From NCBI RefSeq assembly GCF_038443385.1, contig NZ_CP151726.1, forward strand, positions 4,960,001 through 5,024,000: a DNA stretch of 64,000 nt, given 5' to 3'. The DNA comes from Stieleria varia. Its GTDB lineage: Bacteria > Planctomycetota > Planctomycetia > Pirellulales > Pirellulaceae. The position numbers and the translations under genes were made by a program. The notes beneath the pieces are model-generated. The model was not told the DNA's origin. It worked only from the letters and a program-made list of their open reading frames with translations, and made no database searches. Each line of letters begins with the position of its first letter. The first letter of the stretch is position 1. This document shows positions 40,729 to 53,457 of the stretch, piece after piece.

Positions 40729-43251
40729 CTAGCGGGACGAATAGCTTTCGTCCGGCGTGGACTCTGCGTTGGTTGATCCAGTGATCAACGTCGGTGAGAC
40801 ATCGGGCGGAGCGACCACTGTCGGAGCTTCATCCGATTTGCCTTTGACGATGTACGTGTCGGTCGCGTTGGCTTCCTTTTGGTAGCGTTGACGGTATTTA
40901 TCGCCGTAACCGTAGCCGATCGATTGGTAGCTGCCGCTGGCACTCGCCTTGTACGACGCACTACCGCTGACTTCGTCGATCTTGTTGACCACAACTCCGA
41001 CGATTCGCACGCCGGCGGATCGCAGCATGGCAACGGACTCTTTTGCATTCGGTTTGCACCGACGACGAATCCGCATCACCAGCATCGCGGCGTCAACGTA
41101 AGTCGTGACCACGGCCGGGTCGCTGACCATCAGCAACGGTGGCGTGTCGACGATGACAAAGTCGTAGTTGGCCCGAGCCCAATCAAAGACATCGCTGAGC
41201 TCGGCGATCGTGAGAGCTTCCGCGGGGTTTGCCGGCAGAGGGCCACAAGCCATGATGTCGAGGTTCTCGATAGGTGTTTCGTGAACGGCAGCGCCGGGGC
41301 TCATCTCACCATTGAGCACGTTTGTCAGACCGACATCGGATTGCAAATTGAATCGCAGTGACATCCGAGGACTTCGCAAGTCCAAGTCGATGAGCAGGAC
41401 TTTCTTGCCCGACTGAGCAATCGAGCAACCGATATTGGCTGCGATCGTGCTTTTTCCGTCACCCGGCAATGGGCTAGTGATTTGGAATACCTTGCTGTCG
41501 TAGGCGCGTCGATCGAAGAACAACGCCGTGCGAATCCCTCGAATCGCTTCTGCGGATGAGGAATACGGCCGGTGGACGACGGAGAGTTTGGGATCGAGCC
41601 GAGAAAGCTCTTTGTCCATCACGGTCTTGCCTTGTTGGACACGGCTTTCGTCCAACGGGATGTGCGACAGAACCGGCAACCGCAGTTCCTTTTGGATTTC
41701 CTCTGCACTGCGGAACATCTTCGCACCGGCTTCGAACAACATCGCCATCAAACCACTCAAACCGAGCCCGAGCATTCCGAACAGGATCAAGTCCTTTTTC
41801 AAGTCAGGGCCGGTCACATACGCGTTGCCCGTGTTGAGCAAAGGTTCGACGACGATGCCGCCGTTGGTGTTGGCCAAGTCGAGTTCTTCGATCCGTTGAT
41901 CCAACTCATCCAGCATTCCCTTCAGGAAATCCATCTTGCGATTGAACGCTTTGTCGGTGTTCTCGGCTTTGTGCAACTGGTCGGCGAGTGCCTCTTCCGT
42001 AGCGATTTTTTGATCCAACTCACGCATATCTTCTTGTAGGACCGTCAAACGCTGAGCCAAGCCGCCCATGTACGCGGCCACAAAACTCGAGGCACGTTCT
42101 TGCCGCTCTTTCAGTCGCAATGTGTTGATGTCCGTCGTCTTGATTTCAGCCCGCAATTGGGCCTGACGTGCCGCCTTCTGTGATTCCAACTCATTCAGTC
42201 GCCGCCGAATGTTTTCGATCTTGCTGGTAATGGAAACCACTTGCGGGTGATTGTCACCGAACTGTGAAATCAACTCAGCACGCTCGGTCTCCAATGGCAC
42301 AAGCTGCTGCTCCACTCCCAGACGCTCCAATTCCAAGTCGTCACCCAAGCCCAAGACGTTCGCTGCCATGGGGGACTGGATCTCAGAAAAGCGATTGGGG
42401 TCGCCCAGCCCAGCGCTCCCACCGATCATTTGTGCCACCATGATCGGGTCAGGATTTTGCTGTCGGATCAGGTCCGCGGTCTTCAGTTCCCGCTCATACT
42501 TCATTGCCTCGGATTCCAAGTCCTCACGTTCCGCTTGCAGTCGAAGCTGTCGTTCGCGGTGGGGATTGATGACCTGGCGATCTTTGTCCCATTTCAGTGG
42601 CGAGTTTTCTTGGAACTCGTGGTATTCCTCAACCAGTTCCTCGTACTTTGGTAACAAGTCGTTGTAGGCTTGATTGACCAGCTTGCCGAGGTTGTCGAGT
42701 TGCGATTCGCGTTCGGCGTCAAAGTGGTCGCTGATTGCAGCGCTCATCACGTTGACGGCGGCAACGCAGAGCGCGGGATCGCCACCTTCGAAACTCAGCG
42801 AGGCAATCATTCGGTCGCGAGAATCGGCGGCGTTGGTGATCGTTTGAAATCGAACTCCACTGCGGATCGTCGCGGCGATCTGCGCTACCGACTTTCCTGT
42901 CATCGACGGCAGCAGCGTCAACGCAGGATCTTGCGCGACGCTCGCCATGATCGAGTCCGACGTGATCACCGACTGCATGATGTTGCCGCTAGGGATACCG
43001 CCTTCCATCACACCGGTCTGCGAATTCAAAATCAGCGGCTTGTCGCTGCGAAACATCAGTTTCGAGGAAGCCATGTACGTGGTCGGCTTTCGCTGGTATA
43101 CCCAGTATCCCACACCGAGTCCGACTGCGGTAAAAATTACCAGCAACCACTTGAACCGCCAAAGTACGGTCAGCATTGACTCGCCGGACAGGCCAGGCAG
43201 ATCCTCGCCAGCGGCGGCGTCATTGATCTGGTGAATGTCTTGTTCCAACAT
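40729..43251 (-). CDS. Polysaccharide co-polymerase / tyrosine autokinase (Wzc-type)
   Basis: This 840-residue inner-membrane protein controls chain length and export of capsular or exopolysaccharide. The N-terminal Wzz domain has a first membrane segment (LLVIFTAVGLGVGYWVYQ) and a long coiled coil (about residues 170-430). A second membrane segment follows near 490 (LILFGMLGLGLSGLMAMLF), then a cytoplasmic BY-kinase domain with Walker A GDGKST near residue 597, VLLIDLDLRSPR and FVIVDTPPL. The C-terminus has a Tyr cluster (YKASASGSYQSIGYGYGDKY), the expected autophosphorylation tail. It heads the exosortase/polysaccharide region. Confidence 0.95.
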   Translation of the reverse strand: MLEQDIHQINDAAAGEDLPGLSGESMLTVLWRFKWLLVIFTAVGLGVGYWVYQRKPTTYMASSKLMFRSDKPLILNSQTGVMEGGIPSGNIMQSVITSDSIMASVAQDPALTLLPSMTGKSVAQIAATIRSGVRFQTITNAADSRDRMIASLSFEGGDPALCVAAVNVMSAAISDHFDAERESQLDNLGKLVNQAYNDLLPKYEELVEEYHEFQENSPLKWDKDRQVINPHRERQLRLQAEREDLESEAMKYERELKTADLIRQQNPDPIMVAQMIGGSAGLGDPNRFSEIQSPMAANVLGLGDDLELERLGVEQQLVPLETERAELISQFGDNHPQVVSITSKIENIRRRLNELESQKAARQAQLRAEIKTTDINTLRLKERQERASSFVAAYMGGLAQRLTVLQEDMRELDQKIATEEALADQLHKAENTDKAFNRKMDFLKGMLDELDQRIEELDLANTNGGIVVEPLLNTGNAYVTGPDLKKDLILFGMLGLGLSGLMAMLFEAGAKMFRSAEEIQKELRLPVLSHIPLDESRVQQGKTVMDKELSRLDPKLSVVHRPYSSSAEAIRGIRTALFFDRRAYDSKVFQITSPLPGDGKSTIAANIGCSIAQSGKKVLLIDLDLRSPRMSLRFNLQSDVGLTNVLNGEMSPGAAVHETPIENLDIMACGPLPANPAEALTIAELSDVFDWARANYDFVIVDTPPLLMVSDPAVVTTYVDAAMLVMRIRRRCKPNAKESVAMLRSAGVRIVGVVVNKIDEVSGSASYKASASGSYQSIGYGYGDKYRQRYQKEANATDTYIVKGKSDEAPTVVAPPDVSPTLITGSTNAESTPDESYSSR

Positions 43252-43650: not shown

Positions 43651-45420
43651 TTAGTTCTCTGAGACGTTAACCGGCGACGTTAGTTCCCCTGAACGAACAT
43701 TCACCGTCCGATCGGCTTCGTTCGCGAGCTGGGAGTGCTTGGCTGCCGAGGAATCATCGCCGATCTCGCGGAAAATCTCCGCCAGCAATTCGTGACATGT
43801 CCGCTCGCTGTCCGAACAGGCCAAGACACGTTCCAGATCCGCCCTAGCGGCTTGGGCCTCCCCCATCCTGTGCAGGAGCTTCCCGCGAGCCAACAGCAAT
43901 CTCCAGTCATCTGGGCAGCGTTGCAGGGTCTGGTTGAGCAGTTTGAGCCCTTGCTTTTGATTGCCGGGATCTCCAACGCCCAGCAAACCGGCGAGAACAG
44001 AGACCAGGTGAATCGCGTCCGCTTCAGATTCACGCCGGAATGCCAAATCCAAGTGAGGACGCGCCTTCGATTCGTCACCGGCCAATAGAAACACGATCGC
44101 TTCGATCAAATGGGCTCGCTGGTTCGAGTTGTCACGGAGCATCGCCAAGTGCGCTGCTGCTGTGTTGCTAAGATCGACTGACGGCGAGTCATGGGCGAGT
44201 TGCAAGAGGGCCTGACGGACGTCGACGTGATCCGGGGCGACCAGAGCAGCTTGAGCGACGATGTTGGCCCTTTGCAGAAACGATTCTGAATTGTCGACAG
44301 ACGCCCCCAGTTTTTCGCTCATCGTCAGCAAAGCTTCGGCGCATGGCCACCGAAGCCGCTCGTCCTCTGCGACTCGCATGCCTTCGCTAAGCGTCTTGTA
44401 CGCGAGATGGTGCTCGCCGCGGATAGCAAACGCCCTGGCCAGCCCCAACCTGCTTTCGACATCAGCAGGGGTTTCACGAATGGTGGCTTGCAAATGAGTA
44501 ACGGCTTCCTTGGCTAGCCTGTTGGCGTTTTGCTGATCGCCCAATTCCGCCATCAGTTGGGCAGCTTGCAAACTCTGCGATCGATCTTGCCTAGCAAGTT
44601 CGTCAAACATCTCCGCCGCCGGCTTCGTCGCACCGGTGTCCATCAGGAAATGGGCATACAACTCGCTCGCATATCGAGATTCCTTTTCGGGCAGTCTTCC
44701 CTTTGTGATCTGATACAAACGATCGATCATTTCACGCTGGGAATCGGACCATTGGGTGCGACGCGTCATGCCCTCGCGAACCATCGTACCGCCTCGCGGC
44801 GCGATACCATCAGAGGCGTTAACAAACATCATCGAATCCAGAACCCACAATGCCGCCGGCGAATACTGGTCCGACATCGCTAGTTGATTCATGATCGCCA
44901 TTGCATCTGTCGGATGGCCCTGCAGTTGATACAACAACGCTAATTGGAATCGATAGCCCGGATTTTCAGGAGCGAGCACCAAGAGTCGCTCGGCGGCGAT
45001 CTCGGCTCGTCGCGTCTCCGACTCACGAATGGCGTTCGTCAACACGTCCCCGTAGGTCGTTTCGCTCTGTGAATCGTCCCGCAGGATCGCAATGAGAGCT
45101 AAGGCAGTCAGCGTCGATGCAACTGCGATCGCTGGAACGGCTGGCAGGATCGACTTGACATCCCGTGTAGCAAACCAGCGAACGATGAATTGCATCGTCC
45201 AGGCGAGCCAAGAAAACGGATTGATGAGTCCTAACAATTTCAGTTCTTGATCATCGTCTGACCATTTGCGTCTCAAACGAATCAACCAGTCGCTGTCGGA
45301 CAACGGTCCAGAATGATCGAAGGAATCCCACAGTGTAGAAATCCGTGGCAGCCGCAGCGCGCGTCTGACAGACATCCATCGGTCCGTTGCCCGTTCCCAG
45401 AACTCGCTCAGAGAGCTCAT
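43651..45420 (-). CDS. Membrane-anchored TPR protein next to the divergent exosortase
   Basis: This 589-residue protein has one membrane segment near residues 90-110 (LPAVPAIAVASTLTALALIA) and then about a dozen TPR-like helical pairs to the C-terminus (for example RLGLARAFAIRGEHHLAYKT and WRLLLARGKLLHRMGEAQAA). The repeats should face the periplasm. It overlaps the upstream exosortase-like gene by four bases (ATGA) and is translated with it. Its counterpart at 49472 follows the other exosortase in the same way. PEP-CTERM/exosortase regions commonly encode TPR proteins of unclear role, perhaps in assembling the polysaccharide machinery. Confidence 0.9.
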   Translation of the reverse strand: MSSLSEFWERATDRWMSVRRALRLPRISTLWDSFDHSGPLSDSDWLIRLRRKWSDDDQELKLLGLINPFSWLAWTMQFIVRWFATRDVKSILPAVPAIAVASTLTALALIAILRDDSQSETTYGDVLTNAIRESETRRAEIAAERLLVLAPENPGYRFQLALLYQLQGHPTDAMAIMNQLAMSDQYSPAALWVLDSMMFVNASDGIAPRGGTMVREGMTRRTQWSDSQREMIDRLYQITKGRLPEKESRYASELYAHFLMDTGATKPAAEMFDELARQDRSQSLQAAQLMAELGDQQNANRLAKEAVTHLQATIRETPADVESRLGLARAFAIRGEHHLAYKTLSEGMRVAEDERLRWPCAEALLTMSEKLGASVDNSESFLQRANIVAQAALVAPDHVDVRQALLQLAHDSPSVDLSNTAAAHLAMLRDNSNQRAHLIEAIVFLLAGDESKARPHLDLAFRRESEADAIHLVSVLAGLLGVGDPGNQKQGLKLLNQTLQRCPDDWRLLLARGKLLHRMGEAQAARADLERVLACSDSERTCHELLAEIFREIGDDSSAAKHSQLANEADRTVNVRSGELTSPVNVSEN

Positions 45421-47210
45421 TTCACGGCCTCCGACATCACATCGTGGACCGTTTTACCCGAAAACATTGCGCGCGCGGTGCGACGCGGGGTGTTGGACGA
45501 CGAGAAATCTGCTTGCGTGTATTTCGTCTTGTGCCAAGTCAGAGATTGCTGAACGACCGACCGAAATTGATGGAATCGACGCCCCAGCTCGAACAACTGG
45601 TCGTCCGAAATGGGTTGGGCTGACTCGTACCAAAGCTGCAACATCAGTTTTCCGCCCGCACCTTCCTTCGCTCGATTTTCTAAGTCGGTATCGCTTCTAT
45701 ACATCGCATTGACTGCACCGATCAGCGGAACACCCAATCGCCCTCCGTATCCATCGACGGCATCAAAGAACAAGTGCCCCCTGACTCCCGTTGAATTCGT
45801 GAACAGTGCTCGCGCGATCGACGGAGATTCCATCGGATCATTTGCATCGACGTTTCGCCACGCAGCATTCCATTCTTGAACCCTCCAGTCATTCGCAGTG
45901 TAGTATCGACGTAAATCATGCCAATCCTGATAGGGTTGACTAATCGAGATCAGGATTGGCGAGCCTTGGAACTCGCCTGACCAAACATCGGTGTATTTTA
46001 AGTCACGATGTTCGTCGACACTTTGTAGTGATTGGCCACGAATCAATGCGTATCGAGCCAGCAACTCGTCCATCTCGGTTGACTCCGCCCAGGGCGTGAT
46101 CGCTGCGGGCATGGGGAAAGCCTGTGTCCAATTCATGGTTGTCGTCAGGACGCCCAATGAAGCAATGGGTACGGCAAAAAGCATCGCGGCCCAAAGCATG
46201 GTTTTGGTCCAAACGATGGGCGGAATGCCCGGCTGGTCCATTTCGGATGGATGCCATTGGGAATCCAGTTCTTTCTCCAACGCCGTGCCCCAAGCCATCA
46301 GCCAATTCCAGCCCATTGACAACGGATTGCTCAATCGACCCGCTTCGGTTTCCGGTACCGGATTGCTCGCGATCGCCAACAGACGATCCGTTGATAAGAT
46401 CATCAGCATGGCCAAAGCCAACGAGCCAACACCGAGCCATCGGTTCATTGTTGGATCAGCAGGGTCAACTTCGTACCACTCCGCCCCCAAAGCCACGATC
46501 GTCACGTGAATTGCATTGACCGCAACGAGCCATGCTGCACAGACACTCCAATAGACAGGAGCCATCATCGCTGGTCGACGAAAAACGACAAACCAGATCA
46601 TCGTCAGCATCAATAGCAAAGAGAGCGTCGGTGTCCCTTTGCAGACTTCCGAGACAAAGATCGGTCCGCCACTGATCTCCAAGACGTCTTGTCGGACATA
46701 GTGAACCACGTCCATCGCATCGAGCAACCAGCTTGCCATCGCCCCAGAGATGCCTGACATCCGGGTGAGAAATTTGTCTGTGATACCAGCAGGAAAACGC
46801 ACCAACATCAGTGGTAGCCACGCCAAATAAACAAGGCTTTGGCGCGTGGTCGCAAAAGGAAATTGGCTCCGCAGGCAGGCCGTCGCGGCGAGCAGGAAAC
46901 CGAGGGCAGAGAGCGCCGGCGAGAATCGAAATCCAGAATACGCCCCCAATGCCAAACTCATCGCGACCAAGATCACCGAGAAGACGCTCGAAGGCATCCG
47001 CAGAACTCGGTCCCAGCGATTGGCCACCAGCCCTGTCAATGCCAACAATATCGCGGGAATCGTGATCCAGCGGTCATGACTGGGCAATCCCGCCAAATAG
47101 GCGACGGTTCCTGGAATGGAAGCCAGCAGGACTGCGAACCAAAAAAGCAGCACCGAACCGGCGTATGCACGCAAGCGTTTGGGGGCCGATGCTGTTTCTC
47201 GGATAGGCAA
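45417..47210 (-). CDS. Divergent exosortase with C-terminal EpsI-like domain
   Basis: This 597-residue inner-membrane protein has about eight membrane segments in its first ~290 residues. A soluble EpsI-like domain follows (residues ~385-580). The exosortase Cys is kept as Cys190 in EVCKGTPTLSLLL. The next conserved position, Arg in other exosortases, is His235 in NAIHVT, and near the third position, usually His, there is Arg257 in MNRWLG. The Cys-to-second-residue spacing (45) equals that in the neighbour at 47450. It may be an altered-specificity or inactive paralogue. The start is a TTG with GAGGGA before it. It belongs to the group annotated as exosortase U in planctomycetes, though this is uncertain. 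Confidence 0.85.
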   Translation of the reverse strand: MPIRETASAPKRLRAYAGSVLLFWFAVLLASIPGTVAYLAGLPSHDRWITIPAILLALTGLVANRWDRVLRMPSSVFSVILVAMSLALGAYSGFRFSPALSALGFLLAATACLRSQFPFATTRQSLVYLAWLPLMLVRFPAGITDKFLTRMSGISGAMASWLLDAMDVVHYVRQDVLEISGGPIFVSEVCKGTPTLSLLLMLTMIWFVVFRRPAMMAPVYWSVCAAWLVAVNAIHVTIVALGAEWYEVDPADPTMNRWLGVGSLALAMLMILSTDRLLAIASNPVPETEAGRLSNPLSMGWNWLMAWGTALEKELDSQWHPSEMDQPGIPPIVWTKTMLWAAMLFAVPIASLGVLTTTMNWTQAFPMPAAITPWAESTEMDELLARYALIRGQSLQSVDEHRDLKYTDVWSGEFQGSPILISISQPYQDWHDLRRYYTANDWRVQEWNAAWRNVDANDPMESPSIARALFTNSTGVRGHLFFDAVDGYGGRLGVPLIGAVNAMYRSDTDLENRAKEGAGGKLMLQLWYESAQPISDDQLFELGRRFHQFRSVVQQSLTWHKTKYTQADFSSSNTPRRTARAMFSGKTVHDVMSEAVK

Positions 47211-47449
47211 CTGATTGTCCCTCGTGCGGTGGGTATCCTATTGTGGACTTTTGAAACGTGGGAGTAAATGGAGGCAAGGGATTTCTGATGATCGCGTATG
47301 GACAAGCGTACACGCCCCGGTGCCGCTCTTGCAGGATTTCGAGGGAAAACCAGAGAATGGGTCTGTGTTCGCTTGCTACAAATCGTGACGCCTCTCTTCT
47401 CTATCTGTCCAAACGAACGATGAATCTGACGTAACTTTCGTTCGATGGG

Positions 47450-49468
47450 ATGTCCCGTTTACGCCGATTTTGGACGTTGCGCGATGCCCAGATGGACGAC
47501 TTATTTGAAAACCATCCCTTGGCGTTTGATTTTTCGCATCGCTTGAGAAACCGTGAACGATGTGTCGTACAGATCATCGCATCTGACTTCCCTCGGTGTG
47601 CCCCGGTTGGAACAAGCCATAAAACCGGATCATTCGTGTCACACACTCCCGCCCACCATCCACTTCGCAAAACCGTGCCTGAATCTTTGGCCTTAGCCGC
47701 TGCTGATGACCCGTCGACCTCCGGTCAAGTCCAAGCCGAATCGGGGGACTTAGAAAGGGAGAGAGGGGGTGTTTGGGCATCTCCGTACTTGCTGACGATT
47801 TTGGTCGCCCTCGGTTTCCTGCCCTTGCTTTATTGGCATGTGCTACAGCTGGCCCAGAAGTCCCATTATCACTTTTTGGCGGTGTTGCCGATCGCGGCGG
47901 TCGCGCTTGCTCGTGGCATTGCAGCCCCGAAACAGCGTAAGACCACGCGGGGCTCGGGTCAGGAAGCAGAGCCGATCAGTGTTTTGGCCACAGATTTCAG
48001 CAGTCCGCTCGTTCCGTTGGGCTGTTTAGTCGCGGCATTGCTTGGTCTCGTTGTGGCCATGTACGTCTGGTCCCCGTGGCTGGCAGCCGTCGCGGCATAC
48101 TTTGCTGTCTTGCCCTGCCTGTGGTTCTTTCGCGGTTGGTACAGCGTTCGGCGATGGGCGCCTCTGTGGGTCCTGTTTGCGGTGGTGATCCCGCCACCTT
48201 TTGGAATGGACGAAGACCTGATCCTGTGGCTTCGCGGTCACGCAACCAACATGACCAGCGCGGTACTGGATCAGTTCAATGTCTTGCATCGCAGCTACGC
48301 CAACGTGATTGAGCTGCCCGAGCGCAAGTTGTTCATCGCTGACGCTTGCAGCGGTATCCATTCGCTCTACGTCTTGTTGGGGGCGGCGCTGTTTCTCGGT
48401 CTACTCAATGGTCGAAACTGGATCCACATCGGCGTCCTGCTGTTGACGACGTTCGGAATCGTGCTGGTGGAGAACGTCGCACGATTGACCTCGGTCGCAT
48501 TGGGATTTCAATACCGGATGGACCTCAGTGAAGGTCCCAATCACGCTTACCTAGGTTTCATACTGTTCGGATTGTCGCTTGGCTTGGTGCTTTCCGCCGA
48601 CCAGTTTTGGCGATTCATCCTGGGAGCAAATCCCAAGCTGCCGTTTCTACCTCGGAGCACCAAAGCATCCAGTTCGGCAAGCGAGAACGATGAGAGCAAC
48701 CATAGAATCCCGCGTGCTTGGCGGATCGTACTGCTGAACATCGGCTTGTGCTTTCCCCTGTTGGCCGTTGCTCAGGTTTTCGCGATGCCCGGTGCGCCAC
48801 CCACAGTAGCACACCTCTTTGACGACTCACTCTCGCTGCCCGATTTCGGCCCCGATGCTGCCCCGGAGCAATTTGGTGGATTCAGGCGGTTTGATTACGA
48901 ACGCATCCGCCGCGTGCCCGGCGATCCTTTCGGTCAGGAAAGCCAGCAGTGGGTTTACTCCCATCCAGACGGCACGCAAGCGATGATCTCGATCGATTTT
49001 CCCTACGAAGGCGTTCATGACGCATGTGAGTGCTACACCCAAGTCGGTTGGGACATTTATGAACAATCGATTCAAACCGCTGAACAACTCAGCGGCATCG
49101 GGGGACTCAGCATCGTACCTGACGGCCCGATGGGCTTGGCGCGAATGAGGCAAACGCTCGATGGCGAAGGATTGCTGCTATCCAGTTGCAGTGACATGGA
49201 AGGCAATGTGGCGGTGGTTCTCAAAGAGTTGTTGCAAAGAAATGCGGGTGAACGTTTGGCGGCACGCTTCGGCGGCGGCACCGACAGGGACACCATCGCA
49301 TCGGCAGGGCAAGGGACCGCGCCGCCATTTGTTCAGTTTCAACTTCTCGCTAAATCCGCCAACGGTTTTTCCGAGCAGCAGCTCGCTGAATTGACCAACT
49401 TGTACTTGACGGTTCGTGCTCACCTGAAGAGCGAAGTGCTGCGGTCCGTTCTTGAGGCAAAGCAATAA
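47450..49468 (+). CDS. Exosortase with C-terminal EpsI-like domain
   Basis: This protein of ~672 residues is an inner-membrane transpeptidase-like enzyme expected to cut PEP-CTERM tails and attach the proteins elsewhere. Membrane segments run from residue ~110 to 390. The full triad is visible: Cys300 in ADACSGIHSLYVLLG, Arg345 in ENVARLT and His365 in GPNHAYLG. The C-terminal ~220 residues form an EpsI-like domain. The N-terminal ~100 residues before the first membrane segment have no clear function. The start is uncertain (ATG 47450, ATG 47492 or GTG 47636). The gene is divergent from the paralogue at 45417 and followed after three bases by a TPR gene. Confidence 0.92.
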   Translation: MSRLRRFWTLRDAQMDDLFENHPLAFDFSHRLRNRERCVVQIIASDFPRCAPVGTSHKTGSFVSHTPAHHPLRKTVPESLALAAADDPSTSGQVQAESGDLERERGGVWASPYLLTILVALGFLPLLYWHVLQLAQKSHYHFLAVLPIAAVALARGIAAPKQRKTTRGSGQEAEPISVLATDFSSPLVPLGCLVAALLGLVVAMYVWSPWLAAVAAYFAVLPCLWFFRGWYSVRRWAPLWVLFAVVIPPPFGMDEDLILWLRGHATNMTSAVLDQFNVLHRSYANVIELPERKLFIADACSGIHSLYVLLGAALFLGLLNGRNWIHIGVLLLTTFGIVLVENVARLTSVALGFQYRMDLSEGPNHAYLGFILFGLSLGLVLSADQFWRFILGANPKLPFLPRSTKASSSASENDESNHRIPRAWRIVLLNIGLCFPLLAVAQVFAMPGAPPTVAHLFDDSLSLPDFGPDAAPEQFGGFRRFDYERIRRVPGDPFGQESQQWVYSHPDGTQAMISIDFPYEGVHDACECYTQVGWDIYEQSIQTAEQLSGIGGLSIVPDGPMGLARMRQTLDGEGLLLSSCSDMEGNVAVVLKELLQRNAGERLAARFGGGTDRDTIASAGQGTAPPFVQFQLLAKSANGFSEQQLAELTNLYLTVRAHLKSEVLRSVLEAKQ

Positions 49469-49471
49469 ACC

Positions 49472-51010
49472 ATGTCAAATCGAACCATCGGTCGCTTCCT
49501 GGCAGTTTCCCGATCGCTGTGGCGAGGCACTCGGCGTTGGCTTGCTCGATTCTTCAAAGCCACCATGGCGAGAAGCGGTCGATTCTTTACTTTCGGCTGG
49601 CTGCGATCAGCTGGTCGGAAGTGGTGGAATTTGGTCGGCGGAATTCCTATCCTGCTGGTCGCATTATTGGTCGGCTACCTAGCGATCTCATGCTCGATTA
49701 GCTCCGAAAACGACATTCGCAGCCGCTATCTCGTGCACGCCGACGCAGCCGCGGCGTCGGGCAACCACAAATCAGCGACATTGCTGTACGAGCGAGCAAT
49801 GGAAATCCGCGAGCTGACGGATCCATCACTTTTTCAAATGGCAATGTCAGCCTTAGAAGCCGGCGAGACAGCCAAAGCAAATACGATCATCCAAAAAATC
49901 GCGCCGCCCGACGAAGCACGCTATGCGAGAGCCCACTTTTGGCGAGCGTCTCAACTGCTCGACAATCCAAGACGCACCATGGATGACGTCATCGCGGGCG
50001 AAGATCAATTGAAGCTCGCTTTGCAGCTCGAGCCCACGAACGACAACATCCGCGCCGCGTTGGCCACGCTCTATTTTCAATCAGGACGCATAGATAGGGC
50101 CGCAGCCGAATTCTCGAATATCACTCCACAACACCCCGAGTTGGAACTTCGGCTTGCCAAGTCCTTGGCGCTCCTGAAACGAACAGACGATGCCAAAGCT
50201 CACGGCGAGAAGGCGTTGAAGTACTTAAAGGAGCAAGCAGCTAGGGACCCCGATAATCTCAACGCAAGGTACCAACTCGCTGATTGTTACGCGTTCCTGG
50301 AGGAGTTTCCCACGTCAGCGAAAATCCTGACGGAATTGATCGCTCAGTCACCTGCCAAGCCTGAATTCTCGAAAGCTCTGTCGACCGTCTATGTGAAGTG
50401 GGAAACCAGTCTGATTGGGGACGACATCGAAACCGATCGCAATCGCTTCGCGCTGCTCGCCCAGGCGCTATCGGTTTACTCCAACGACATACAACTTTTC
50501 GATCGCTTGATGCAGTTGCTCGGGAAGCGAAACGAAGTTTCCGAGGAGTTGGCTGCGTTTCTGAATCGAAACATCGCCGAAGGGCGAGCGTTAGGATTGA
50601 GCCACCTGATCCTGGGGTCCCGAGGTTTTCTGGACGACCGTGTTGAGCCCTCGATGTTTCATTTGGAGCGTGCCTACGAATTGATGCCAAATGCAGCCAT
50701 CGTCGCCAACAACTTCGCATGGTATTTGCTCAATTCTGACCCTCCAGCACCACAGCGAGCCCTGCAAATCCTTGGGCCGATCATCGAGAAAAGCCCTGAG
50801 GTGAGTGCGTTGCGGGATACCCGTGGAATGGCCTATCTGGCAATCCAAGAATGGCGAAAAGCCGTCGCGGATCTGGAATTTGCGATCGAGAATGGCCTAA
50901 GAGGCAGTGTCACCACTCACCGGGGACTCGCCGAAGCCTACACGCAGCTCGGATTACCGGAACTCGCCGAAGAACACCGCAGAATTGCTGAAAAATCAGC
51001 CGATCAATGA
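49472..51010 (+). CDS. Membrane-anchored TPR protein following the exosortase
   Basis: This 512-residue protein has a basic N-terminus, one membrane segment at about residues 52-72 (GGIPILLVALLVGYLAIS) and a TPR-rich helical remainder (for example YERAMEIRELTDPSLFQMAM and LATLYFQSGRIDRAAAEFSN). The C-terminal part contains NAAIVANNFAWYLLNSDPPA and DTRGMAYLAIQEWRKAVADL. It starts three bases after the exosortase stop codon, so the two are co-transcribed. It mirrors the TPR gene at 43651 in position relative to its exosortase, suggesting that TPR-exosortase pairs are functional units. Confidence 0.91.
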   Translation: MSNRTIGRFLAVSRSLWRGTRRWLARFFKATMARSGRFFTFGWLRSAGRKWWNLVGGIPILLVALLVGYLAISCSISSENDIRSRYLVHADAAAASGNHKSATLLYERAMEIRELTDPSLFQMAMSALEAGETAKANTIIQKIAPPDEARYARAHFWRASQLLDNPRRTMDDVIAGEDQLKLALQLEPTNDNIRAALATLYFQSGRIDRAAAEFSNITPQHPELELRLAKSLALLKRTDDAKAHGEKALKYLKEQAARDPDNLNARYQLADCYAFLEEFPTSAKILTELIAQSPAKPEFSKALSTVYVKWETSLIGDDIETDRNRFALLAQALSVYSNDIQLFDRLMQLLGKRNEVSEELAAFLNRNIAEGRALGLSHLILGSRGFLDDRVEPSMFHLERAYELMPNAAIVANNFAWYLLNSDPPAPQRALQILGPIIEKSPEVSALRDTRGMAYLAIQEWRKAVADLEFAIENGLRGSVTTHRGLAEAYTQLGLPELAEEHRRIAEKSADQ

Positions 51011-51157: not shown

Positions 51158-51865
51158 ATGTTTCGAGCGTTTCTTGCCCTCGCCGCGCTAGCCCTCATTG
51201 TTCAATCCAACGCCCATGCAGTTGCCATCACTGGCGTTAACACAACCACAGCGAATGGCGGGTTGACGTTGAATTCGAGTTCTATCATTACCGGAGCAGA
51301 AGGAAACAACGACTTCGCGGGCGCCTTCGGCACGAACCCCAACCGTGTGAACCTGAATTTCACGATCTTGGACAAAGGTATTGCGGACCTGATCACGTTC
51401 AATGTGGATGCGACCAACACGACAGCATCTGAATATGAATTTGCGGTCACCTTCAACTTCACGGGCCATGGTCACGTCAATGGCTTCGACATGCAGTTGG
51501 TCAACACGCCGAACGCTGCACTGACGCGTTTCGAGCTGTTCCCAGATCCGGCTTTGCCCGGCCCATTTTCGACGGCTACTGGCACTGCTGGCGCTTTCGC
51601 ATTTGAAACTCCCAACTTGAATCCGTTTCCGAACTCGGCTGGTCCGCTGCGATTCGGCGGACTCAGTGGCGGTGGTGGTCACTTGATCAACGATGGCAGC
51701 ACAGTCACAGCATTCTTCACGATCGACTTCGCGGATGGTGCGGTCGGCCCGAATCAGTCCTTCGCCCTGCAATTCACTGCCAACCCAGAGCCATCATCTG
51801 CCGCACTTGCTGTGTTGGCACTTGGCCCCCTCGTTCTGCGTCGTCGTCGACGAAACGCTGCTTGA
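51158..51865 (+). CDS. PEP-CTERM sorting-domain protein
   Basis: This 235-residue secreted protein has a signal peptide (MFRAFLALAALALIVQSNA). A beta-rich middle part follows, with many Asn/Thr/Phe residues. The C-terminal sorting signal is PEPSSAAL at about residues 210-217, a hydrophobic stretch, then RRRRR before the end. That is the tripartite signal recognised by exosortases, and one intact exosortase lies 1.7 kb upstream on the same strand. The middle domain resembles no family I know; it could be a matrix or adhesin protein. A strong terminator follows. No other PEP-CTERM tail was found in the window. Confidence 0.93.
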   Translation: MFRAFLALAALALIVQSNAHAVAITGVNTTTANGGLTLNSSSIITGAEGNNDFAGAFGTNPNRVNLNFTILDKGIADLITFNVDATNTTASEYEFAVTFNFTGHGHVNGFDMQLVNTPNAALTRFELFPDPALPGPFSTATGTAGAFAFETPNLNPFPNSAGPLRFGGLSGGGGHLINDGSTVTAFFTIDFADGAVGPNQSFALQFTANPEPSSAALAVLALGPLVLRRRRRNAA

Positions 51866-52000: not shown

Positions 52001-52834
52001 ATGACCCATCGGATTCCTGTCTCCGTCATCGTCCTTGCAAAGAACGAAGAGCAGAACATCGTGAGATGCCTAGGATCGCTGCATTGGGCCGAAGAGTTGG
52101 TTGTCGTAGACGATCGTTCGACGGACCGTACCGCTGAACTGGCGCGTCTACACGGAGCCCGAGTGGTCGATCATCCCTTTGAGTCTTTTGCTCAGCAACG
52201 CAATTGGGCGCTACGAGAAGGTGGACTCAGAAATGATTGGGTGCTGATGCTCGACGCAGACGAAGTGTCAACGCCGGAGTTTGCAGCCGAGATCCAGCGA
52301 GCGATTATCGACGCATCCAACGATACCGTCGCCTTTCGGACTTGTCGAAAGACCATGCTGGGTGACGCTTGGCTGCGTCGTAGCGACAGCTTTCCGGTTT
52401 GGATCATGCGACTCGTGCGACGTGACCGCGCATGGTTTGCCGATAGCGGCCACGGTGAAGTGCCCGTTCCCGAGGTCGATGGCGAGATGGGAACCATCAG
52501 AGAACCGTTCGTACATCATCCGTTCAGCCGAGGGTTGAACGACTGGTGGCAGCGTCACATACGCTACGCGGAACGGGAAGCACGACTGGAGATGCTCTCA
52601 GCGACGCAGTTGTCGTGGAGCGACTTGATCAAGTCCGACGCGAGCAAGCGTCGTCGTGCCTTAAGGGAGCTAGCGCGCAGGATGCCGTGTCGTGGCAGCC
52701 TGCGATTCATCTATCAGTACATCGTCAAGCGAGGTTTTCTTGACGGCCGGGCAGGTCTGCAATTCTGCCGAATGATGGGATGCTACGAGCGAATGATCGT
52801 GGTCAAGAAATGGGAGCTGTCCCAGGAACGCTAG
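52001..52834 (+). CDS. Glycosyltransferase family 2
   Basis: This 277-residue GT-A enzyme has the nucleotide-sugar start PVSVIVLAKNEEQNIVRCL, VVVDDRSTDRTAELA with the first Asp pair, and the metal-binding LMLDADEVST near residue 85. It is like the LPS-core/heptose-adding WaaE/KdtX group in its later part (ISRGLNDW-like PFSRGLNDWWQRHIRYAERE). It is cytoplasmic. It is the only plus-strand gene at the start of the glycosyltransferase run and is convergent with the acetyltransferase. Its TAG stop codon falls in the end of a palindromic repeat. Confidence 0.92.
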   Translation: MTHRIPVSVIVLAKNEEQNIVRCLGSLHWAEELVVVDDRSTDRTAELARLHGARVVDHPFESFAQQRNWALREGGLRNDWVLMLDADEVSTPEFAAEIQRAIIDASNDTVAFRTCRKTMLGDAWLRRSDSFPVWIMRLVRRDRAWFADSGHGEVPVPEVDGEMGTIREPFVHHPFSRGLNDWWQRHIRYAEREARLEMLSATQLSWSDLIKSDASKRRRALRELARRMPCRGSLRFIYQYIVKRGFLDGRAGLQFCRMMGCYERMIVVKKWELSQER

Positions 52835-52896
52835 TACGTCAGGCTTTCTAGCCTGACCTATCCCCTGTATGTCAGGCTAGAAAGCCTGACGTACTA
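52832..52896. repeat. Two-hairpin repeat (family C) spanning both stop codons
   Basis: The arms TAGTACGTCAGGCTTTCTAG + CCTGAC (52832-52857) and the complementary 52871-52896 form a perfect 26-base inverted repeat with a 13-base spacer. Each arm can also fold on itself (GTCAGGCT/AGCCTGAC). The outermost TAG on each strand is the stop codon of the glycosyltransferase and of the acetyltransferase, respectively. Confidence 0.93.
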
Positions 52897-53442
52897 CATC
52901 TCACGCGTCCCAACCTGCTTTGCGGGATTCCCAGCCACGATCGCCCAGGCGTCCACATCTCGCACAACGACGGCCCTTGCGCCCACAACCGCGCCCTGCC
53001 CAACGGTCACGCCCGGCCCCACAAACGCGTCGGTGCAAACCCAAACGTCATCAGCGATCTCGATGGATGCTTTGATCAGCGGCAACGTCGCATCACGATG
53101 GTCATGACTGCCACCGCAGAGATGGGAACGTTGTGAGATCGTGACTCGCTTGCCGATGACCATTGGTCCAAGGTTATACAGCACCGAGTCGAACCCAACG
53201 GAAGACCAGTCACCGATCGTCAAGTTCCAGGGAATGAACACGCGAACGCTGGAATGAATATGGACATGCTTGCCAATCTTGGCACCAAAGAGACGCAGCA
53301 TTCCTCTGCGCCAACCCCAAAGCAGTCGCGGAGAAAACCGAAACAGTGGTGATGCAAGACTCCAAAGCATCCGTCCCGTCAGTTCACGCAACGACCATTT
53401 ACGTTGAAGTCGGTTTTCGGCAATTGGCTCCAGTTCGTTCAT
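52894..53442 (-). CDS. WcaF-type hexapeptide acetyltransferase
   Basis: This 182-residue protein of the left-handed beta-helix family probably O-acetylates a sugar of the polysaccharide from acetyl-CoA. Visible hexapeptide stretches are FGAKIGKHVHIHSSVRVFIP, LTIGDWSSVGFDSVLYNLGP and GPGVTVGQGAVVGARAVVVR. A catalytic-type His lies in the CGGSHDHRD segment, as in colanic-acid acetyltransferase WcaF. ATG 53442 is preferred over an upstream TTG because AAAAGG lies before it. The gene follows the ligase-like gene after 15 bases on the same strand. Confidence 0.9.
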   Translation of the reverse strand: MNELEPIAENRLQRKWSLRELTGRMLWSLASPLFRFSPRLLWGWRRGMLRLFGAKIGKHVHIHSSVRVFIPWNLTIGDWSSVGFDSVLYNLGPMVIGKRVTISQRSHLCGGSHDHRDATLPLIKASIEIADDVWVCTDAFVGPGVTVGQGAVVGARAVVVRDVDAWAIVAGNPAKQVGTREM

Positions 53443-53457
53443 GGACCTTTTTCTCAA

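Follow-up and report, generated by a model that had tools for sequence, protein, structure and literature searches.

Two XrtU exosortase-TPR units of different descent, one with an altered catalytic triad, in a head-to-head block of Stieleria varia

Introduction

Exosortases are widely predicted but still poorly understood. For the PEP-CTERM/EpsH system, the passages of Haft 2006 (PMC1569441) drawn on here propose a sortase-like role for EpsH, describe PrsT and give EpsI as a protein of no known function; Cys, Arg and His are named as conserved residues in the cited section of a 2015 review (PMC4343526). Here, a stretch of 64,000 nucleotides of Stieleria varia (contig NZ_CP151726.1, positions 4,960,001 to 5,024,000; hereafter the window) was analysed computationally with the focus on a block of two XrtU exosortase genes, which lie on opposite strands and are each directly followed by a gene for a membrane-anchored tetratricopeptide repeat (TPR) protein. 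Changes of such Cys, Arg and His residues reportedly abolish the activity of archaeosortases. To our knowledge, no pseudo-exosortase has been described, and a search of the literature, restricted to open-licence papers, returned none on pseudo-exosortases or on an active site of EpsI.

The locus in the window resembles the PEP-CTERM/EpsH system, as presented in the cited passages of PMC1569441, in that an exosortase is found among exopolysaccharide genes together with PEP-CTERM proteins, an EpsI-type domain and a TPR protein, but each of its TPR genes either overlaps its exosortase gene or directly adjoins it. These TPR proteins also differ from PrsT (TIGR02917, cut-off 312.2), since the one on the plus strand reached 68.2 bits and the one on the minus strand gave no match; the PrsK and PrsR models had no match among the ten window proteins scanned. 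With the XrtU family (NF033780) the locus has in common that both exosortases pass the C-terminal model and that the plus gene encodes Cys-Arg-His among exopolysaccharide genes. Unlike in that family, two triad residues (Arg and His) and the Cys of the C-terminal domain (C-domain) are missing from the minus gene, and the intact and the degenerate member stand head-to-head. Stand-alone EpsI (PF11984/DUF3485) has the same H-x4-C-[YFM] motif and a profile probability of 95% with the XrtU C-domain; in XrtU, however, the domain is fused to the exosortase, and the DUF3485 model gave no match to the window proteins at E 1. Finally, the loss of catalytic motifs from a protein that is kept is a trait of pseudoenzymes of other families (PMC10211241, cited passages). 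The block is probably a two-exosortase exopolysaccharide locus in which a catalytic unit lies beside a retained non-catalytic exosortase-TPR unit of different descent.

Family assignment and catalytic residues

The genome, a single contig of 9.72 Mb, has five exosortase-core genes, of which four belong to the XrtU type. As a TPR gene directly follows 4/4 of the XrtU genes, the exosortase-TPR unit is general in this genome. In the window, the starts of the minus exosortase gene (45417..47210) and the plus exosortase gene (47450..49468) are separated by a divergent gap of 239 nt (47211..47449, from the coordinates of the open reading frames, ORFs). The TPR gene of the minus unit (43651..45420, minus strand) overlaps its exosortase gene by 4 nt and that of the plus unit (49472..51010, plus strand) follows after 3 nt, so that the four ORFs, their coordinates and both junctions are as a first-pass annotation of this DNA had given them. 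Both TPR partners match TPR models and have one hydrophobic segment near the N-terminus.

Both exosortases passed NF033780 for the XrtU C-terminal part (cut-off 40; minus 74.8 bits, plus 98.0 bits) and PF09721 (cut-off 25.7; 42.8 and 95.1 bits), and neither passed the general exosortase model TIGR02602 (cut-off 105.55; 40.3 and 74.3 bits). In the plus protein all three residues stand in the aligned triad columns (C300, R345, H365), and the C-domain holds an H-x4-C motif from His523 to Cys528 (49016..49033, plus strand). The minus protein has C190 (codon 46641..46643), H235 at the Arg position (46506..46508) and N256 at the His position (46443..46445, all minus strand), the two replacements being supported by the alignment and a codon check. 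Arg and His are thus gone, and the CSG motif reads CKG. Its C-domain keeps the His and has Tyr436 (codon 45903..45905, minus strand) at the position of the invariant Cys, and so there is no H-x4-C motif. By its sequence the minus protein is an XrtU homologue that is not classed as an active exosortase, and it is treated here as a pseudo-exosortase candidate. An exchange of Arg and His between the two positions was considered and rejected, as the alignment puts Asn at the His column and Arg beside it. The true start of the plus exosortase may be near residue 109, where the alignment with its best relative sets in.

Descent of the two units

Among the four XrtU proteins of the genome no pair is less similar than the two in the window (22.6%, 45.8 bits). 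For the minus exosortase the closest of the others is the XrtU protein encoded at 3.51 Mb (149 bits), for the plus exosortase the one at 1.26 Mb (131 bits). The same pattern holds for the TPR proteins, with 46.6 bits for the window pair and 121 and 150 bits for the partners elsewhere in the genome. A tree of 60 exosortases was calculated with IQ-TREE; of the 64 pairs left after thinning at 75% identity, nine rows were removed, and five intact exosortases for which no TPR gene had been called were added. In this tree the minus gene grouped with its same-genus orthologues (99/94); the plus gene joined G202, G209 and G247 (100/100). Accordingly placed were the TPR partners, the minus one in the clade of the TPR genes of the orthologous loci and the plus one with TPR partners of the same exosortase clade. 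Approximately unbiased (AU) tests rejected a sister relationship of the window exosortases (p 1.6e-67) and of the window TPR proteins (p 9.8e-8, on a quicker tree). Tree distances of exosortases and TPR proteins were correlated over 55 pairs (Mantel rho 0.75; 0/999 permutations as high); the TPR tree behind this test and behind the TPR AU test came from a short search. Because these distances correlate, exosortase and TPR protein are inherited together, and because the window genes belong to separate clades, two units of different descent met here. The proposal of the first-pass annotation that exosortase and TPR protein act as a pair agrees with the matching trees and with the unit at all four XrtU genes of the genome.

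Comparison with same-genus loci

An orthologue of the minus exosortase was found in seven same-genus loci, and Cys-Arg-His is intact in 7/7 of them, compared with Cys-His-Asn in the window copy. In four loci followed gene by gene (L117-L120), genes for a glycosyltransferase, a Wzy-like protein, the exosortase, the TPR protein and the kinase all lie on one strand. The gene beside the exosortase ends in the PEP-CTERM manner, judged by eye (RGAPEP, hydrophobic stretch, RRR), in 7/7 orthologous loci. The window has no such gene at that place; instead, the other strand carries the genes for the plus exosortase and its TPR partner there, followed by a PEP-CTERM-like gene of another kind and the glycosyltransferase gene. 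In G202 a plus-type exosortase, a TPR protein and an NPEP protein are encoded co-directionally in a similar cluster. As turning the window segment round gives one co-directional operon, inversion of a segment with exosortase, TPR, PEP-CTERM-like and glycosyltransferase genes within such an operon would be the simplest origin of the mirror layout. A repeat common to both ends of the supposed inverted segment was looked for and none was found. The GC content and the GC content at third codon positions of the plus unit were unremarkable, and foreign base composition was thus not seen.

Against the orthologues, identity was 28-31% for the minus exosortase, 29-32% for its TPR protein and 57% for the kinase, the last value from five same-genus orthologues at the same position; among themselves the orthologues reach 51-74% (exosortase) and 52-85% (TPR). 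With about 30% identity against 57% for the kinase, the minus exosortase and its TPR partner are, judged from these identities, a pair that sped up in evolution together. The plus exosortase had 29-36% identity to proteins of same-genus genomes among the matches listed.

Degenerate exosortases in other loci

For a wider survey, loci were drawn from among the matches listed, giving 144 loci with 170 exosortase-core ORFs. The triad was intact in 137 and degenerate in 28; five partial ORFs were kept out of both counts. Degenerate copies recur in other genera. Most are long (25 of 516-623 aa), and three of 338-346 aa are without the C-domain. A curated cut-off was exceeded by 18/28, namely 14 with NF033780, which was run on all 28, and four more with PF09721, which was run on 10 degenerate copies plus the window. 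Five others had weaker significant matches and five (L157, L167, L173, L202, L203) none at E 0.001 with the models run on them. Since the curated XrtU model passes 14/28 degenerate copies, counting its matches as working exosortases would mislead. The altered triads vary (SRP, NRP, NRA, CKS, GEN and others) and there is no common replacement. On the 60-row tree, 13 degenerate rows required seven state changes, six of which are forced by well-supported branches (bootstrap range 7-7).

Two exosortases were found in 24 loci: 18 combine an intact with a degenerate copy (17 on the same strand, the window on opposite strands), six have two intact copies and none has two degenerate ones. The head-to-head layout occurs once in these 24, in the window, the other 23 being co-directional; on contig G247 (L121) a truncated exosortase lies on the strand opposite to an intact one. 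In 14/18 mixed loci the degenerate member exceeded a curated cut-off. A TPR gene was detected within 300 nt downstream of at least 69/137 intact and at least 18/28 degenerate genes; these are lower bounds, as four TPR queries were used and nine of these genes end at a region edge.

Several arrangements were observed beside these counts. A degenerate exosortase gene follows 3-121 nt after an intact one, at a place that a TPR gene often occupies, in L112 (7141-8940), L215 (2799-4496) and L216 (6624-8324), and an unconfirmed exosortase-like protein is encoded within the same range of spacing after an intact exosortase in L173 (5343-6959), L202 (6801-8378) and L203 (10262-11893). In L171 and L294, which are one locus, an intact and a degenerate copy are accompanied by a third ORF, exosortase-like but without the Arg and with no residue aligned at the His column. 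In genus g83 a protein of 593-624 aa with one hydrophobic segment is encoded after the intact exosortase (L103 10813-12657, L104 7068-8888, L105 6373-8247, L106 6061-7842). Two of these proteins were searched against Pfam and gave no match; compared with the TPR partners, hhalign returned a probability of 75%, and the protein is possibly a far-diverged TPR partner.

A C-domain motif apparently lost together with the triad

The C-domain motif of XrtU is W-H-x4-C-Y-x3-G-W; in stand-alone EpsI proteins from this phylum it takes the form H-x4-C-[YFM]-x3-G, and its His, Cys and Gly did not vary among the 20 proteins aligned (20/20). In an hhalign comparison of intact XrtU C-domains with these 20 EpsI proteins (probability 95.1, E 3e-8 for one target) the motifs were in register at H-x4-C-Y, which bears out the earlier description of the C-terminal domain of both window exosortases as EpsI-like.

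Among proteins with the domain, the Cys was present in 132/132 intact and 2/20 degenerate copies and the His in 131/132 and 7/20, respectively. Of 32 columns conserved in intact proteins this Cys, by which the degenerate class is not defined, is the least retained. Two Trp, two Pro, one Gly and the S..LLDxxG..H positions are kept in 15-20 of the 20 degenerate copies and the other columns in 4-16. An alignment-free search for H-x4-C found the motif in 131/132 intact and 2/20 degenerate proteins. The uncorrected Fisher test for the loss of Cys gave p 1.6e-21 on rows many of which are close relatives. After correction for kinship, seven independent contrasts remained, of which 6-7 agreed with the expectation and none opposed it (sign test for Cys, p 0.016-0.031; for His p 0.06-0.25, not significant). 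The triad and the C-domain Cys seem, from these alignments, to be lost together, and we infer that the C-domain His and Cys may take part in the same reaction as the exosortase triad. The repeated natural losses of the triad thereby show its companions: the EpsI-type Cys goes, and several structural positions stay.

Selection and predicted structures

For L112 and L178, two degenerate copies whose triads are altered in the same way, the ratio of nonsynonymous to synonymous substitution rates (dN/dS) was 0.10 at dS 1.37. Three other degenerate comparisons gave 0.16-0.25 at dS of about 2 and three more were saturated, so that the computable comparisons (n = 4) cover dN/dS 0.10-0.25 at dS 1.4-2.3; intact comparisons gave 0.08-0.15. 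In genus g83, end branches of the TPR partners of degenerate copies measured 0.24-0.51 and those of intact copies 0.11-0.57 (their clade, without the long row L135).

AlphaFold2 models had a mean predicted local distance difference test score (pLDDT) of 83.5 for the plus protein (from residue 100) and 84.6 for the minus protein. As the models are confident and have a similar order of helices and strands, the degenerate minus protein probably keeps the fold. A search of the PDB with both models gave no match at E 0.001. Among Foldseek hits below this threshold, which fell in the C-domain region of both window exosortases and serve as a lead only, Bet v 1/START folds were frequent, and the minus protein also hit the Eag chaperone SciW. 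SciW was solved with a transmembrane domain, and the lead perhaps hints at binding of a PEP-CTERM helix.

Interpretation of the block

In the reading preferred here, a catalytic unit with a retained non-catalytic unit, catalytic sorting would be the task of the plus module (intact exosortase, TPR protein and PEP-CTERM-like protein). The minus module, made up of exosortase, TPR protein and Wzc-type kinase, would represent a unit common to part of the genus, whose exosortase lost catalytic residues and the neighbouring PEP-CTERM-type gene and stays as a membrane protein with its TPR partner. The degenerate pair may act as a scaffold or regulator; for example, it could hold the TPR protein, the kinase and a lipid-linked glycan near the working enzyme via the S..LLDxxG..H positions. 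The degenerate copies as a group suggest a role of exosortase and TPR protein without cutting. The first-pass annotation had left open two parallel sorting lines or one line with a regulatory partner; as a single exosortase retains an intact triad, the latter is favoured and the parallel lines are not.

A wider proposal is held more tentatively, being in our estimate rather less probable than its negation. It says that pseudo-exosortases form a recurrent, selected non-catalytic class beside a working exosortase, with TPR partners, and that EpsI constitutes a second Cys/His active site for the same sorting reaction, for instance as an acyl relay through which the cleaved protein is passed from the exosortase Cys to the final acceptor. 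Both sites would vanish together because the EpsI site serves the same reaction.

Several observations weigh against these readings. Fisher tests of the closeness of degenerate genes to another exosortase gave 2.4e-5 over all loci and 0.0027 with 4-kb edges, but 0.55 with 7-kb edges, which leave six degenerate copies; these tests ignore phylogeny, and 20 regions had been fetched on account of two matches or a near relative. For 10/28 degenerate copies there is no intact copy in the region read, and in 4/18 mixed loci (L173, L191, L202, L203) the degenerate member stays below the curated cut-off. L110 and L111 are each one triad residue off intact and keep the C-domain Cys, which speaks against a strict link of the two sites, as does the exosortase of a planctomycete metagenome-assembled genome (L304 1847-3502), which has intact Cys-Arg-His and a C-domain without His and Cys (1/59 of the named set). 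Against a distant orthologue the minus exosortase of the window had dN/dS 0.40 at dS 1.87, a value from which constraint is not established. Of the traits of a pseudoenzyme, the sequences show residue loss in the window and low dN/dS in other degenerate copies, with the window copy at 0.40.

The same value speaks for another explanation, in which the minus exosortase and its TPR gene are remnants that are being lost after the plus unit took their place. The acceleration of both genes, the absent PEP-CTERM-type neighbour and the 29-36% identity of the plus exosortase to same-genus proteins fit this explanation as well. However, both genes are full-length open ORFs with the 4-nt overlap kept, degenerate copies retain several conserved structural columns, dN/dS was low in the four degenerate comparisons with computable dS, and in g83 the TPR partners of degenerate and of intact copies have end branches of similar length. 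We consider decay unlikely, though a serious competitor of retention.

Still less probable is a minus exosortase that remains catalytic with a rearranged site formed by Cys190, His235 in the place of the former Arg and Arg257 next to that of the former His. The kept Cys, the placement of these two residues, the long ORF and the confidently predicted fold would suit such an enzyme, but CSG has become CKG, the C-domain Cys is lost too, other degenerate copies have no common replacement, and the PEP-CTERM-type gene that adjoins the orthologues is not present in the window. The ancient inverted duplication of one exosortase-TPR unit with subsequent divergence, which the first-pass annotation had read from the mirror gene order and the common domain content, is highly improbable, given that the copies are the least similar pair of the genome, fall into separate clades with AU rejection for both genes, and stand in a layout seen once in 24 two-exosortase loci.

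Neighbouring genes and further observations

Two genes of the window locus are assigned to exopolysaccharide formation. Downstream of the minus pair, 40729..43251 (minus strand) encodes a Wzz/Wzc-type protein with a tyrosine autokinase domain (TIGR01007, 162 bits, above cut-off). A family 2 glycosyltransferase (PF00535; synteny) is encoded at 52001..52834 on the plus strand, that of the plus unit, whereas in same-genus loci this gene is co-directional with the minus-type exosortase. A hydrophobic protein of 470 aa was labelled Wzy-like from its position only and had no curated match.

The gene at 51158..51865 (plus strand) encodes a PEP-CTERM-like protein, a possible substrate of the plus exosortase, whose C-terminus by eye consists of NPEPSS, a hydrophobic stretch and RRRRR. 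It had curated matches only below cut-off and no Pfam match, and PF07589 did not pick it up in the search of the genome. In G202 and G209 the gene at the equivalent position encodes an NPEP protein with a basic tail. In the whole genome PF07589 gave 25 matches, 18 of them over cut-off, and in control genomes none over cut-off.

The fifth exosortase of the genome (L010 6729-7811; G000:C1:4394728-4395810) has 360 aa and Cys-Arg-His, without a C-domain match. It adjoins another Wzc-type gene, and a match to stand-alone EpsI lies about 9 kb off (G000:C1:4405250-4405699).

A scan with a consensus promoter found six sites over 13 kb, compared with 6.2 in shuffled sequences, and none in the 239-nt divergent gap. 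At 52832-52896 an inverted repeat with arms of 29 nt (97% complementary, 7 nt between the arms) forms a terminator-like hairpin, which marks the right but not the left border of the supposed inverted segment. It separates the glycosyltransferase gene on the plus strand from a converging gene on the minus strand (52894-53457), the product of which is acetyltransferase-like by eye.

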